A DNA stretch of 64,000 bases from Tridacna crocea (Eukaryota > Mollusca > Bivalvia > Cardiida > Cardiidae): positions 38,464,501 through 38,528,500 of the forward strand of contig OX031057.1 of assembly GCA_943736015.1 (NCBI GenBank), in the 5' to 3' direction. Shown here piece after piece: positions 1,770 to 64,000 of this stretch (the stretch's first letter is position 1; every line of letters starts with the position of its first letter). Below the pieces are notes generated by a model that was not told the origin of the DNA, made no database searches, and was given only the letters and a program-made list of their open reading frames with translations. The position numbers were made by a program, and so were the translations under genes.

Positions 1770-1955
1770 AAGCATTTTCAAACAATAAATCAAATCTGGG
1801 CCAGATAAAGGCATTTGATTTTGACGAAGTTGGAACGCAGTACCAGCATTTTTGAAAATAGCTGGGAACTGGAGAAAATGCTTTTTATCAGCATTTTCTC
1901 CATTGCCCACAATGTTTTCATAAGCTTCCTTACACAGGGTTGTTAAAACTCAATG
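1770..1955. mobile_element. Degenerate TTAA MITE, subfamily A
   Basis: Only the GGAGAAAATGC..GCATTTTCTCC core and the ATGTTTTCATAAGC flank are well kept. Confidence 0.4.
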
Positions 1956-2494
1956 GCTCGCTGGTCTTTATTTCGACGACGATTGTACGGGAAAGCAGCC
2001 GATATGGACATGTGCAGTTGACGCCGCTACATAACTGAAAACGTGTTGGAAATGGCGTTGAACACTTGAAATAAACAAGGGCCTCATGCATTCTAAAAAA
2101 AAATATGCAAGTATTTTTCTTTGCAGGTTGTATCTATCGATGACATAGAGTACACAATGAATTTATTTCCGTAAAAAAAAAAAACGAGGAAGGTGGACAA
2201 GACAAACAGACGAGCAGTTCTACACCTTGCGCAATAACAGGCCTCCCTTTTACCAGTTCTACTTCTAGAGTGGGAATATTGTCAGCATCTGAAGAAGCCT
2301 CGCCATGGACAATAAAGGATTTAGCGGTAAGTTCTTGGTCCGTGTTCACCGACCATTCTTGAGAATGTTCTTAGTCTAACTTTTCATTTCGATACATGTC
2401 AAAGAAGAATTCTGTATCAAGACAAAGCCATTTTGTTTGACAATGGATTCATATTACGAGCCTACCCACGTGATATATTGCATGTGATAATGCA

Positions 2495-2723
2495 TTAACC
2501 CATTACCACACAATCCGTACTTCTGACGCCCCTGAGAAAGAAGCCTTTTGAAAACACTGTGGGAAAAGGAGAAAATGCTGGTAACCAGCATTTTCTTCTT
2601 TTCCCACAGTGTTTTCTACCCTTCCCGGAACAAATTTCTATTTTTGAGTCACCTTTATTTTGTGATCTGCAAATGCTTTCAATTTGGACCAGTCTAAAAT
2701 TTTCTGGTGTGGTAAAGAGTTAA
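2495..2723. mobile_element. TTAA MITE, subfamily A
   Basis: Complete: TTAACCCATTACCACACAAT at the left, TGTGGTAAAGAGTTAA at the right. The centre is a near-perfect palindrome around CTGGTAACCAG. It ends about 190 bp upstream of the initiator ATG of the PTCHD-like gene. Confidence 0.85.
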
Positions 2724-2916
2724 ACCTCCTTTTCCTTGGGGCGCCGCTAGAATATTTGGTGAAGGTCCATTGTGTAATAATAGCGGCTGTTTGGTTACAG
2801 ATATAAGCAGTGCAAATGGTACCTTGGCAGAAACAGCAAACGGGCAAGTTGGGCAACCGGAAAACAGAGCAATACATCCCTACAAAACACAGAGTCGACC
2901 AAACTGCTTATCACGC

Positions 2917-2960
2917 ATGCGCAACACGATCATATCCGGATTGGAGGAAATATTTTACAA
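2917..2960 (+). CDS. Exon 1 (initiator) of PTCHD-like gene
   Basis: The exon encodes MRNTIISGLEEIFY plus two bases, then GTAAGA. It splices in phase 2 to exon 2 and gives FYNIGLFIAKHP, matching the usual family N-terminus (a short amphipathic helix ending in FY.xG before TM1). The ATG is the first in this open frame. The context is weak (C at -3), so an upstream non-coding exon or another start remains possible. Confidence 0.72.
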
Positions 2961-5900
2961 GTAAGACTAAAACGGTTATATATTTTTAAGTCTCACAGTC
3001 ACGTAAATAAATTTGACTCATTGCAAAGTCTAAATTTAAATTCCTACTGCGTTTGAAAGTAATTTTGGTCAACATGTTACATCAGGCAGTGTATGTGTAG
3101 ATGTAGGGTGCTTCTTACATTTGGAATAGGAAAACTTTGAAGTTTTCCTTCGCTGGGATGAAGATGTGGTGTTCAATGCCGTTTTTTACATTGTTTCAGT
3201 AATATCGTGATGGCCAGTGCACCTGTCCATGCTTTTCTAGAGTATCTTGCACAATATTATACCTAAAGCATTGACTGTTTTCTTCATAACCATCGTCGAA
3301 ACAAGGATCAGCGATGGGAGAGGAGTGAAAATTCCTGTACCAATGACTGCCATCAATTCTCAGAAAGAAATCTGCCGAGCTTAGGATTTGAAACAGGAAC
3401 TGCCATTTCTCAAGTCCCGTGCACCATTTATTGCACTTTCGGTGCTCTGGTATGAAATATCAAGACCGAGGACTTTGACTATATATGTTGACGTGTCGGT
3501 CATCAAATAAAGCTCATCAAGTTTGGTCCACGCAGTCATCTCTTGAAAAATAATTCAAGTCTAAACACAGTGCTAAAGGTCAAGGTCAGAGTCACTGTTT
3601 TTCAAAATAGAAAAAAATAAGGACTAATATGGAATCGGTAATAATTTTAAAAGTCTGTGAATTATGTTTAAGAAATGTTTATTGTATTACATATTGGTAC
3701 ACCAATATCTTATATCTTCTGATTCCTTAGCAGACGACAGCCGCTTCGAAGTCCAGTTTTAACACTGTTGCTACCTAAACCATAGCAAATTAATTTTTCA
3801 CCAAACGATAAAATTTTCGACTCGTCTAAAGTCAAATCATCTGTACACGACTAAGCAAATGTGACCAATATGATGGAAATTGTCTTTGTGTGGACAACAT
3901 TTTGTGAAAAGTAGAAAAGGATAGGTTTATTATCCCCCTCGTTACACTATGCACTTGCTTTTTGTACATTTGTGCGCTGCGACCTTAAACTCTTTACCAC
4001 ACGACAAAATTTTAGGTTGTTTCAAATTGAAAGCATTTGCAGACGACAAAATAAAGGTGACTGAAAAATTGAAATTTGTTCTGGAAAGGGTAGAAAACAG
4101 TGTGGGAAAAGGAGAAAATGCTGGTTACCAGCATTTTCTCCTTTTCCTACAGTGTTTTCAAAAGGCTTCTTTCTCAGGGGCGTCAAAAGTAGGGATTGTG
4201 CGGTAATGGGTTAAATTCATCATGTAGAGCCGTTCTTTGGTACATCAGTATGTACAGATTAAGGTAAGACCTTTGTAATGGAAAACAGCTATTTCCACTA
4301 AAATATCATCCTGCAAAATCAGCAATAATTAAAAATGAGTATTATTGAACTACTTTCACTATTTCATTTTTTTCCATTTTTTCCTTCTTTGAATTATCAT
4401 TTATAAATCTAAAACCACTATATTCTCAATTCAAAAAGAGATAATAATTACCTCCCTTTTCAGAAAACTAACAAAAGTATCAAAAAATAATTTCAAGATA
4501 GACATAAACGGAGTTTCTGATCCGTTAGAAATGTGCAAAAATATTATTTCTGCCTAAATTCTTATTTATTCTTATTTATCAACCAATTAGAATTTTCACC
4601 GGAAGTGCGTTACACAGGTCTTATCTTAACCCTTTCCCAAACAAACCCTGGTTTTTACGGGTCTGGTATAGTAGCCTTAAGAAAACATTGTGGGAAAAGG
4701 AGAAAATGCTGGTAACCAGCATTTTCTCCTTTTCCCACAATGTTTTCTACCCTATCATCGACAGAAATCATCTTTTCAGCCAGAGTTGAATTGTCGTCTG
4801 CAAATGCTTTCAATTTAGTCTAGTCCAAAAGTTTGTCGTTTGGGAAAGGGTTAATGTAACCACAAACCTGCCGAATGAAATTTACATACATTTCCAACCA
4901 ATAATGAACACCAAACTATTCAACTGATCCCAAAGTCCTTTTAGTCAGAAAATGTTACAATATCGAGCAGTGTAGATCCGAGAGCACTCTTTGTGCAGTC
5001 TGATCTTGATCCAAACTGTCTGCATTTTATCCCTCTGGACAGCCTATGGGTTCAGACTTTCTTTCGTGTTTTTCAGCATCGGTTTATTTATCGCCAAGCA
5101 TCCAATACCGACCATCGCCATCAGTATCATCATACCGGGGTTGTTAAGCATTGGAATAATCAAGTACAGGTTTGATGAGGACTTCGCCGATTTACTGCTT
5201 CCGCCTACGTCACGAATCCACGAGGACCGGAAGTGGGTGTATGAGCATGTGCAGTACGAACAACGGCCAATACGTCTGATATTGAAAAATCAAAATGTCC
5301 TGACGAAAGAGAGTTTGCTTGCGGTATGTTCAAGCCTTGTGACAAGTCATTTTTGACGTAGTGTCTAAACAGAGATTTCCACTGCAAGTTTTAAAGTGAT
5401 TTTAACCCTTTCCCAAACAATCCCTGGTTTTTTTTCGGGTCTGGAGTAGTAATCTTTTGAAAACATTGTGGGAAAAGGAGAAAATGCTGGTAACCAGCAT
5501 TTTCTCCTTTTCCCACAATGTTTTCTTCCCTATCATCGACAGAAATCATCTTTTCAGCAACAGTTGAATTGTCGTCTGCAAATGCTTTCAATTTGGTCTG
5601 GTCCAAAAGTTTGTCGTTTGGGAAGGGTTAATCAAAGCTCGGCATGAGGTAGCAAATGGTATAGATACAAGATCAGACTGCACCTTTTGGATATTCTGAT
5701 CTTGATCTAGACCGTCTGCAAAACTATTAAAGTCGCCCTTTGCAGTGTATGAATTAGAAAGAGGTAAAATGTATGTTTCAATTAATTTTTTGCCATAGTA
5801 TTTTACAAAATGTCGGACACTGCAGAGCTAAGATCGATGCCCGTGTGCAACAATCACTCTGAATAGCATTTTTGGTCCCATTCTCACGAATTTTCTAAAT

Positions 5901-30166: not shown

Positions 30167-30395
30167 TTAACCCATTACCACACAATCCCTACTTTTGACG
30201 CCCCTCAGAATGAAGCCTTTAGAAAACATTGTGGGAAAAGGAGAAAATGCTGGTAACCAGCATTTTCTCCTTTTCCCACAATGTTTTCTACCCTTCCCAA
30301 AACAAATTTCAAATTTTCAGTCACTTTTATTTTGTCGTCTGCAAGTGCTTTCAATTTGAACAAGCCTAAAATTTTGTCGTGTGGTAAAGACTTAA
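30167..30395. mobile_element. TTAA MITE, subfamily A
   Basis: Complete copy downstream of the gene; intact core. Confidence 0.85.
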
Positions 30396-59321: not shown

Positions 59322-60306
59322 ACTTGGAGTTCGGATCACTGGATTTTCTCTATCACCTGGTAAATGTAAGAACGTAGTGATAATTACTTTAAGAAGTCTT
59401 TGCAACAGTAAATTGACTTTTTTCTCACTGGGTAATTTGAACACTGTATTAATAATATTCTTACCAAGTCATTGCATCCAGGAACAAACCCTATATGTAA
59501 TCATTGCAACAACAGATTGAGAAATCATTGTAACAGTGAATTAATTCATCTGTCAGAGTCATTGCAACAATGGATTATTTCTTTTGTCATTACTACACTG
59601 GATTGATTATTTTTCTGCTAGTAATTAAAACAATGGGTTTAGAAATTTATAACTTAGTCATTGCAACATTGGATTGACTTATTTCTGTCCTTGTCATTGC
59701 ATCAATAGTTATCCTAACCTGACCAAGTAATATCAGTTATTGACTTAAAAATTCCATATGTAGTGATTGTAATAGTGAATTTACCAAACTCTTACTTAGC
59801 TCCTGAAAGACTGGATTACTTGTTAAAAGTCATTATATGAGTGAATTGACATCGCTCTGAAGGTCATTGCAAGACTGTATTTTTTGCTTTGTTAGTTGTT
59901 GCAAATTTTGGACTGTTATAACTAGTTGTTCTAACATTCAACAGATGAATGTCTTGCCTAGCCATTAGTACTGAGATTGACAAATCTTTGCATAATCATT
60001 GTAACCTTAAACTGACTTCTCTTTAACCTAGTCATTGTAACAATGGACTGAGAAACTTTTTAATTTGTCATTGCTACACTGGATTGATTTTTTTTCTACT
60101 AGTAATGACTGTAATGGATTTAGAAATTGATAATCTAGTCATTGCAACAATGGATTGACTTATTTCTGTGCTTGTCATTGAATCGGTAGATATCCTTACT
60201 TGACTAAGTTATATCAGTTACAGACTTTTAAATTCCATGTCTAGTGATTGTAATACTGAGTTTACCAATCTCTTCATTATTCACTGCAAAACCAGATTGA
60301 CACTGG
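59322..60306 (+). repeat. ATTGCAACAATGGATTGA satellite, block 4
   Basis: Continues the array up to a split MITE. Confidence 0.85.
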
Positions 60307-63097
60307 TTAACCCATTACTACACAATCCCTACTTTTGAGGCCCCTGAGAAAGAAGGGTTTAGAAAACATTGTGGGAAAAAGAGAAAATGCTGGTAACCAG
60401 CATTTCCTCCTTTTCCCACAACGTTTTCTATTCTTCACAAAACAAAGGGGGGGTCTCATTTGCGCCCACGCATGGATTTTCTTGATACTTTGCAAGCGAA
60501 TTGCCTTTGGCCTATGAACTGCAAAAATGTATTTATCTACTTCAAATAAGACATGTAGGTCTCAGAAGGGCACCTTGGGGTACTCCTAGTTTTGGCTGGT
60601 ATCTGCCTTGAAAAAACTAAGTCCAAAGTTATCGAAATTCATTATTTTCCTAAAACTTTAACATGAATAGTAAAGGTACACCTTATAGAGATATTAGATA
60701 CAAATTGTGCTATTATAGGTATTGACTTGACTGTTTTTTAAAAACTTGAATGTAAAAAGTATGGATAAAATTGACACTGAAATTTTCCAAACACAAAGTT
60801 CAACAAAACATTTATGGTAGTTCTAGTCTTTGTCAACCTATGAAATTGCTAGGAAAGTAGGCCCTGTATGTCTACATAATACACACAAAATTTTATAAAA
60901 TTTGAAAACCGGTAACAATCTCATATTATGCATGATATGAGCAAAGGTGGTGTTTTGGACAAAAATCTAATGTCCATCTAAAATGTGTTATGGTTACCAA
61001 AATACTTTCTAATGCAATAATATCGATATTTTTGCATAACTAACTATGATAAATGAAAGATTCACATACAGAAACAGACTTCTGTAAAGGTATAGCAGTA
61101 ATTATACAGATATTTTCCTAGGAAAGTAGCATGTATGAAAATAAACCCCAAAAAACACTAATTCACAAATTATTTTTATTTAATAAATATTCCTTTCATC
61201 CCAAAATATATTCTACACTTCTAATTTTCAATAGGACAATCATCTGAAGAAAGTGGCTTATCATTAAAAGAGTATTAGACAGGGTGCTCCACTTTTACCA
61301 TAGATATATGCATGTCTTAACAAAAACATTCAGATGACAACCAGTAAATCAATTATTATACTAATAGCAATATTGTTAACACCATTTAGATGCAACTCGT
61401 GCATACGTTAATGGTCTGGCAGTACCTGGCAATTAGTAAGGTTACCTATATCAACAACTTTGAAGTTTGAATTAAAAAACTGTCAGCAAAACATACTTGT
61501 GTCTGAAAACATATTTTATATTTTTTTATATATTTGAACATCCTTAATGATGATTTTCTTTATACATATGAATGGTTTTAACAAGAGTCATCGTGATATC
61601 AACAAATTGTTTTTCCTTCAGGTTGATACTGGCTACAAAGACTAAAAGTGATTATCAATTACATTCACTTTCCACTAAACAGAAAAGAACAAGAAAACAC
61701 TTCTACATCATTATACAATACTCCTATATTTGTGAACAGTTTTCTGCAGTCATACACAATTCATTTCTTTGAACAAAGTCTGACTGTATAGCTTTTCAAA
61801 AAGTACATGTACTCATACTGGTATTTCATTGAAACTGCTTTCTTCTGTAACTCCAAAAGTAACATTTTAAATGCTAGTGTAACACTCATGCCTAAACTAC
61901 TTTCTAATTGAAACATTTCATTCTGCCTTGTTGCACTTCATCAGCTAAGAGAATAGTTTACTTATTACATGTATTTTAGTCTATGTTTTGTCATATTTGA
62001 TACTAGCTTTTGTAGTTGTTGCATGGCTTATGAACCATCATTAGAGGCACTACCACATGCAAAAAGATTCAAGGCCTCTGTGGTATCATATGGAAAAGAT
62101 GTATAGAATTGGCTTAATGAGAGTGAAACAAAATAAAAATCATTAATAAGTAGTGTTAAATTATCTGTTTGCACTGAGTAATAGTAAACTCCTCAGAAGT
62201 CCGCATAGGAGCAGTTTTAATAGATAACATCTGATCTATTTCCATTATCAGACTTTCAATTGAGTTTTAATATTGCTATTTTTGATTTTCTTTATGGTGT
62301 TCAACAAGGTGCTATTATTTCTGCAAAAACTCTTTTTGGTAAATAAAGCATTCTCTTTTGATTGTATGCGAAGTTTCTTATACCAGAACATCGCACAAAT
62401 CATAAACATGCGTAAATAAACAATAATAAAAACCCTAAAACAAAAACTAAAAAAAAATGTGAATTTTACATTTTTAAAAAAAAAATTGACCATTAAGACT
62501 AAAATTAAAAAAAGACTATGTTACCGGTTTTATTTTTTCTTGATATTTTAGGATAAGAACAAGCATATTTGTGGTCAAATTCAATATCAATTTCATAGGT
62601 TGACAAGAACTGTAACATGGTGAAAATAACAATTCAATTTGTTCAAAATATTTTACAAATGTGAAATTTGGAGGTCACTTCAATCAAAAATTGATATGGT
62701 CAATTTTGTTCAATATAACAATATAAACTAAAGGTTCATACATGATGGAGATAAATAAGCATTATTTTAGGAACAAATTTGGTCAGCAAATCAAAAATCA
62801 GAAGGACTGTGGGCTCCTTTAATTGAGGCACACCCATTTTTTATCAAAAATTCTAAAAAATTCAAAAAATCAAAAACTGTGGTAGATGGAAGAAATTTCT
62901 TTTTAGTAATATAATCCTCATGTAATACACTACCTTCACATAAATTTTCATAAAATTCTGGGCGTGGGCAGGTCCCTATGTAAATTTCATATAGGGTGAG
63001 ACCCCCCCTTTCAAATTTTCAGTCACTTTTATTGTGTCATCTGCAAATGTTTTTGATTTGGACAAACCTAAAATTTTGTCATTTGGTAATGAGATAA
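60307..63097. mobile_element. TTAA MITE split by a 2.56-kb insertion
   Basis: The left part 60307-60446 (TTAACCCATTACTACACAAT to CTTCACAAAACAAA) and right part 63009-63097 (TTTCAAATTTTCAGTCAC to GGTAATGAGATAA) rebuild one normal subfamily-A copy. The satellite resumes on both sides. Confidence 0.88.
60447..63008. mobile_element. Spy-like element inserted between AAA and TTT
   Basis: Both ends are GGGGGGGTCTCA in inverted orientation, with a GCCCACGC subterminal repeat (60463-60470 and inverted near 62962-62969). Joining the flanks restores ACAAA|TTTCAAA exactly, so no bases are duplicated. Spy transposons are known to insert between AAA and TTT without duplication. The interior is AT-rich with no recognisable transposase. 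Confidence 0.72.
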
Positions 63098-64000
63098 AAT
63101 CATTGTAACAGTGAATTGACTTCTCTCAGAAGGTCATTGCAACAGTGTATGTTTTGCTTTGTTAGTCATTGCAATCCTGGACAGTTATAGTCATTGTAAT
63201 ATTCACCTGATGAATGTCTCGCCTAGCCATTGGTACTGAGATTGACAAATCTTTTGCATAGTCATTGCAACCCTGACCCGACTTCTCTTTCACCTAGTCA
63301 TTGCAAGAATTGCTTGAGATTTTTTTTTATCATAAATGGATATATTGATGTCACCTTGTCATTGCTACAATGGATTGATAATTCTATGACTTTGTCATTG
63401 GAACAATTGATTGACTATCCTCTCGCCTAGACTTTGTAACACTGGATTATACTAAATTCTTATAAAATTGCTTCAACAGTTGATCTACAAAACTGTGATA
63501 GTGATTCAGACACTGGATTTCTCATCTTAATCTTGGAGTTCGGATCAATGGATCTTTTCTATCACCTTGGTAAATGTAACAATGGAGTGATAATTAATTT
63601 ATAAAGATTTTGCAACAGTGAATTGACCTTTTTTTCTCACCAGATAATTGGAACACTGCATTAATAATATTCTTACCAAGTCCATGCAACCCTGAACTAA
63701 CAGTTTACGTATGCATTGCAACAATGGTTTGAAAAATCATTGTATTAGTGAATTATTTTATCTGTAACAAAGTCATTGCAACAATGGATTAATTTTGTTT
63801 TATTTGTCACTGCTACACTGCATTAATTCTCTTTCTACTTGTAATTACAACAATGGATTTAAAAATTTATAACCAAGTCAATGCTAAAATGGATTGACTC
63901 ATTTCTGTTCTTGTCATTGCATCAATAGATATCCTATCCTGATCAAGTAATAACTTGTCTCAGAAGGTCATTGCAACTCTGCATTTTTTGCTTTGTTAGT
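63098..64000 (+). repeat. ATTGCAACAATGGATTGA satellite, block 5, runs off the window
   Basis: The array continues to the last base of the window, so its true length is unknown. Confidence 0.85.

Follow-up and report, generated by a model that had tools for sequence, protein, structure and literature searches.

A deleted Spy-type element inside a TTAA-type MITE of Tridacna crocea, and the full-length copies of its family

The locus discussed here raises the question of whether a DNA segment lying between AAA and TTT inside a MITE, which itself lies inside a satellite array, is a transposon of the Spy group, and if so, whether the genome has a longer copy encoding a transposase. The founding paper for this group is said to be that of Han et al. 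in 2014. The 64-kb stretch of DNA analysed here (the window) almost certainly contains a copy, lacking part of its interior, of a Spy-type cut-and-paste transposon family with recent activity; the copy was presumably mobilised in trans into the AAATTT of a MITE, with no target duplication.

The nested locus

The non-autonomous Spy-type element is 2562 bp long (60447..63008, + strand) and corresponds to bases 1-1572 and 4212-5199 of L059, a full-length copy elsewhere in the genome. Its left terminal inverted repeat (TIR), GGGGGGGTCTCA (60447..60458, + strand), and its right TIR, TGAGACCCCCCC (62997..63008, - strand), are perfect over 12 bp, or over 15 bp when the flanks are included, namely the left half (AAA, 60444..60446, + strand) and the right half (TTT, 63009..63011, + strand) of an AAATTT target. 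The first-pass annotation had described a 2562-bp element with these ends between AAA and TTT, and its coordinates prove exact to the base.

From both ends, long inverted arms extend into the element, about 470 bp on the left (60447..60918, + strand) and about 490 bp on the right (62518..63008, - strand). A 19-mer, TTGTCAACCTATGAAATTG, and a 13-mer, AAAACCGGTAACA, are common to both arms and fall on one diagonal, 384 to 490 bp from the element ends; no match in 300 Markov shuffles is longer than 17. A local alignment of arm to arm, with the first 16 bp excluded, scores 40 against a maximum of 38.5 from 200 shuffles, so that the arms are long but degenerate. Only the right arm has the 23-bp imperfect palindrome CCCTATGTAAATTTCATATAGGG (62974..62996), unmatched in the left arm, which carries AAATTT near its centre and is about as long as the 19-21 bp by which the arms are offset. 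The window copy has no transposase of its own: ORFs with a start codon reach at most 81 aa, and a Pfam scan of frame +1 (stops read as X) returns no match. A remnant of the transposase ORF, its last 28 codons, CMAYEPSLEALPHAKRFKASVVSYGKDV, plus the stop (62018..62106, + strand), starts at the deletion junction and appears as the end of a window ORF at 61969-62106.

The MITE that hosts the element totals 229 bp. Its left part (60307..60446, + strand) starts TTAACCCATTAC and includes its TTAA; in its right part (63009..63097, + strand) the TTAA has become ATAA by mutation (63094-63097). The insertion site is spanned by 32 further MITE-like copies in the 64-kb window. Exactly AAATTT stands at the site in 18 of them, at least one of the six target bases is different in the other 14, and the most similar copy (30167-30390, 90% identity) runs through the junction ungapped. 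Because these copies span the site with the six bases present once, nothing was duplicated and nothing lost when the element entered; the earlier claim that removing the element restores the MITE exactly, with no target duplication, is borne out. In an alignment of twenty MITE copies with their flanks, counted by eye, 17 copies carry TTAA on both sides, and the left and the right TTAA are each present in 18; similarity stops at these TTAA. They start mostly TTAACCC(A/T)TTACCA or near it, and the ends are mirrored (...GGGTTAA or ...GAGTTAA). A TTAA target duplication together with a TIR beginning CCC is the signature of piggyBac. Judged by its ends, the host MITE is classed as piggyBac-type (TTAA), sharing with such MITEs both the TTAA at either end and the TIR beginning CCC.

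Within the host MITE is a palindrome of about 70 bp (60358..60432), with 35-bp arms that are 91% complementary. This palindrome recurs, whole or partial, at 50 places in the 64 kb (e.g. 784, 11030, 27012, 27801, 41492 and 57794). At 18 of the 50 places there is no nearby match to the arms of the host MITE (one of them, 44287, is a divergent member by alignment), so the hairpin core seems to be common to several MITE-like families.

Satellite DNA flanks the nested insertion on the left (59500..60306, + strand), with a motif of about 35 bp around CATTGCAACAATGGATTGA and larger units spaced 418-481 bp, and on the right through to the window end (63098..64000, + strand). Tandem rows of the motif start about 53.5 kb into the window. 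Three satellite paralogues (at about 56784, 57200 and 59823) show the empty site as it was before the MITE arrived, each with a single TTAA. With empty sites visible for the MITE insertion in these paralogues and for the Spy insertion in the MITE copies, the layers are ordered: the satellite came first, then the MITE, then the Spy element. This agrees with the proposal, made from the window alone, that three layers could be ordered in time. Far from this locus, an open frame at 4976-5356 resembles by eye an exon of a Patched-domain membrane protein and is a candidate for one.

Copies in the genome and their target sites

The 1.05-Gb genome to which the window belongs was searched for copies of the element. 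With the nested unit as query, which includes the MITE and may therefore favour copies in MITEs, the search yields at least 40 element copies, counting the window's own, the others being 97-99% identical, among the best 40 scored of 5212 candidates. The pattern AAAGGGGGGGTCTCA, which is AAA plus the element end, has 58 + 61 = 119 matches genome-wide against 0 + 0 for the reversed control pattern, which excludes chance as the source of these ends. Exact left ends counted irrespective of flank number 77 genome-wide, of which 56 combine AAA with a run of exactly seven Gs, and controls give 0. The 15-mer end pattern also has six matches in IMG/VR.

The copy set used below (n = 55) consists of the window copy and 54 fetched loci. 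Of the 57 loci originally fetched, three were excluded: L025 has lost its right end, L040 belongs to L059, and L060 is a tandem segment. Loci L015-L053 (39 loci) come from the nested-unit search, and L054-L071 (18 loci) were picked by exact pairs of AAA plus TIR or by their spacing; because of that choice, the flank rule is freely tested by 38 of the 55 copies only. In all 55 copies AA lies immediately to the left of the element and TT immediately to the right, and in 48 the flanks are the full AAA and TTT (left flank AAA in 51, TAA in 3, GAA in 1; right flank TTT in 51, TTC in 2, TTA in 2). Each of the seven departures is at an outermost target base, and one of them, the TAA case L042, is AAA/TTT as well when six Gs are counted in its run. 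Among the flank-unselected copies, AAA/TTT is found in 31 of 38. A direct repeat of 2-8 bp across the element is found in 0 of 55. The expectation that other copies would lie between AAA and TTT thus stands for the inner two bases on each side and gives way at the outermost base in seven copies, and duplicated targets, one of the outcomes that would have told against the first-pass annotation, fail to appear in any of the 55 copies drawn from the whole genome.

Among the 27 flank-unselected copies that lie outside MITEs, the base bordering the target is C or G in 19 on the left and in 13 on the right; the other flank positions in these 27 show no strong preference. Unbroken runs of G or C at the element ends measure 7 to 14 (n = 55), and the run is damaged in three of the 55 copies (L024, L039 and L042). 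Two further observations concern the fetched loci. At L060 the ends recur about 7866 bp apart on one strand (C14:33031161, 33039026 and 33046892), a spacing that points to a tandem duplication carrying the 2.56-kb derivative. Loci L054-L058 carry inner insertions of roughly 0.3-3.1 kb, four of them around positions 840-1105, with junction overlaps of 2-14 bp.

A preference of the family for landing in this MITE, over and above what its AAATTT content provides, is unlikely. The idea draws on the 17 of 55 copies that are MITE-borne, 15 of which have their junction at MITE position 138-148, where two neighbouring AAATTT lie, and on the four of 55 that sit in the exact 20-mer MITE site covering these two. 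The MITE accounts, however, for 52 of 136 AAATTT in the window outside the element and for 22 of 95 AAATTT in the flanks of non-MITE copies (shares taken from the window and from copy flanks rather than from a random genome sample), and against these the 17 of 55 are no significant excess (binomial P 0.33 and 0.20, respectively). For the exact 20-mer site, the one-sided P is 0.049, 0.21 or 0.30 when 1, 1.7 or 2 AAATTT are counted per site, with the genome total of AAATTT extrapolated from the window. The 20-mer itself has 58,238 exact matches genome-wide (control 0), and 7 are found in the window where 3.6 per 64 kb are expected from the genome mean; the window, about twice as rich in it, therefore overstates the MITE background, which speaks somewhat for a preference. 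Against so rough a background a preference for the MITE is not shown, although a modest one may exist.

Full-length copies, their transposase and the spread of the deleted form

Uninterrupted copies of about 5.2 kb are represented among the fetched loci by L059 (5199 bp) and L052 (5201 bp). In L059 a single ORF reaches 300 codons; it encodes 726 aa, and this protein matches Pfam DDE_Tnp_4 at residues 366-529 (E 1.6e-16, 60.8 bits, cut-off 24.8) and also DDE_Tnp_1. The longer copy that the first-pass annotation had envisaged is thereby present, with a DDE transposase of the type common to PIF/Harbinger, ISL2EU and Spy. Residues D367, D447 and E496, assigned by eye, are the likely catalytic triad. 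An HTH_Tnp_4 match at 282-329 reaches 17.5 bits in the whole protein and 18.4 in its N-terminal 360 aa, where the Pfam cut-off is 27. Besides the transposase, L059 has no stop-to-stop frame of more than 96 codons, and the remaining frames of L052 are likewise of at most 96. With 62 of 624 candidates scored, at least two open full-length frames are found (C14:29223040 and C14:40175975), and the copy in L052 (C13:39636726) has a full-length frame with one stop. The transposase has no confirmed relative in IMG/VR, and a sequence search of the PDB with E up to 1 returns an octaketide synthase (E 0.42) as its sole match. An IS5-family NCBIfam model was considered and rejected, its 29.8 bits being far below the cut-off of 110.

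The C-terminus of the L059 transposase, CICPSGKRTIGMCAH, contains CxCx10CxH at residues 675-689, which we take to be a SWIM-like zinc motif. The paralogue L072 (C15:22536900-22541600) has CTCKAGARVVGCCAH at the equivalent place, the two being 35% identical over the alignment (35-37%). L072 encodes a related protein in a stop-to-stop frame of 696 aa, with DDE_Tnp_4 besides the SWIM-like C-terminus, and has an inverted repeat of at least 52 bp that runs off the fetched DNA; it would represent a second such transposase family. Alignments of many other relatives in the genome extend through residues 699-703 of the query (62 of 624 candidates scored). The Pfam SWIM model is not found at the L059 C-terminus, where only Torus appears (15.8 bits, cut-off 29), and its score in L072, 13.1 bits, is below the cut-off of 19.6. 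Searches of open-licence texts for SWIM together with ISL2EU or PIF give nothing on Spy, and the word is absent from the main text of PMC11304231. A C-terminal motif of this kind, seen as a pattern and conserved in two sequences, is possibly unusual for Spy. We raise only tentatively, and with more doubt than belief, that the family may belong to a Spy/ISL2EU-like branch whose transposases end in a SWIM-type zinc finger, perhaps doing the work for which sister groups have separate YqaJ or Myb proteins, and that this finger may underlie the duplication-free joining.

Could the element belong instead to ISL2EU or PIF/Harbinger, with their usual AT or TWA duplication misread because the flanks are rich in A and T? 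The DDE_Tnp_4 domain would suit such a reading, and so would the similarity of the DDE transposases of PIF/Harbinger, ISL2EU and Spy reported in the available text of PMC4482050, along with the placement of Spy under ISL2EU in Repbase, as given in that of PMC12730594. It is nevertheless highly improbable: the 2-bp repeat expected of an AT duplication and the 3-bp repeat expected of a TWA duplication are each found in 0 of 55 copies, as is any duplication of 2-8 bp, AA/TT is found in every copy, uninterrupted MITEs hold the six target bases once at that very point, and L059 offers no second stop-to-stop frame above 96 codons.

How the deleted form came to be where it is can be judged from its junctions. 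The deletion, which joins base 1572 to base 4212 in L059 numbering, removed the start of the ORF and nearly all the rest, leaving only the last 28 codons. This junction is shared by 10 of the 55 copies, the window copy included, at different chromosomal places, and the best account of this is that the derivative was itself mobilised repeatedly. A second junction, 1914 to 4275, is carried by 37 of the 55, again at different places, and five further deletion junctions are seen once or twice each. The deleted form has presumably spread by transposition, with the transposase supplied in trans. The window copy diverges most from L059, with 0.94% mismatches over the aligned parts against 0.21-0.62% in the remaining 53 copies; with copies so little diverged from L059, we infer that the family was active recently in evolutionary terms.

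The Spy-type reading suggests the following course of events. The 5.2-kb parent would encode one DDE transposase, which, acting in trans, would recognise the GGGGGGGTCTCA ends and excise the element. It would then join the element at the centre of AAATTT and leave no target duplication, either because the target strands are joined without a stagger or because a gap is lost. The window element would in this way have entered the AAATTT of a TTAA-type MITE that was already sitting in the satellite array. That the arrangement arose instead as a one-off rearrangement or assembly join, falling by chance between AAA and TTT, would suit the single copy within the window and is so improbable that it can be set aside, being refuted by copy number: the 77 exact left ends and the 119 AAA-plus-end matches occur where controls give 0, and 54 other two-ended copies are cut at identical ends.

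Comparison with Spy, ISL2EU and related groups

The genome offers a clean natural data set for the duplication-free cut-and-paste rule of Spy, with dozens of little-diverged copies, many of them in an abundant MITE with empty sites, and with open-framed full-length copies. The result is a good but ordinary confirmation and adds no new kind of element. As described in the available text of PMC4482050, Spy is a group of the PHIS superfamily that inserts within AAATTT with no target duplication. The corresponding text of PMC11304231 gives Spy elements one ORF, a length of 1165-5910 bp and TIRs of 5-691 bp, and reports them mostly from arthropods, with a few cnidarian and molluscan families; according to the portion of PMC9179366 available, most have one ORF and the group is known from invertebrates only. 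In the window family we find insertion at AAATTT, no target duplication in 55 copies, TIRs, and a parent whose one long ORF exceeds 500 aa and encodes a DDE domain. Its assignment to Spy, already suggested by the first-pass annotation, is thus supported, judged against group descriptions of target, ends, ORF and size.

Spy as a group and the window family are alike in the AAATTT target, the absence of duplication, the TIRs, the single DDE ORF and the ranges of size and TIR length. No tested feature excludes the family from Spy, and the SWIM-like C-terminal motif goes unmentioned in the available parts of the Spy descriptions. The nearest comparisons are with two elements described in the available text of PMC11304231, namely cgSpy of Colletes gigas, which is active, uses AAATTT sites without duplication and has 467-bp TIRs, and cvSpy of Crassostrea virginica, a molluscan Spy. 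Like cgSpy, the window family uses AAATTT and leaves no duplication, and the degenerate arms of the window element, about 470-490 bp, are similar in length to the cgSpy TIRs. Compared by description with both cgSpy and cvSpy, the window family differs in having only 12 perfect terminal bp and mostly deleted copies. ISL2EU, in the available text of PMC4482050, makes AT duplications, carries a second ORF with YqaJ and has TIRs that usually begin GG. Its DDE transposase is related to that of the window family, and the GG start is a further likeness, whereas neither the AT duplication nor the YqaJ exonuclease ORF is seen here, the other frames of L059 and L052 being at most 96 codons long; it is the duplication-free joining at AAATTT and the single DDE ORF that the window family has in common with Spy.
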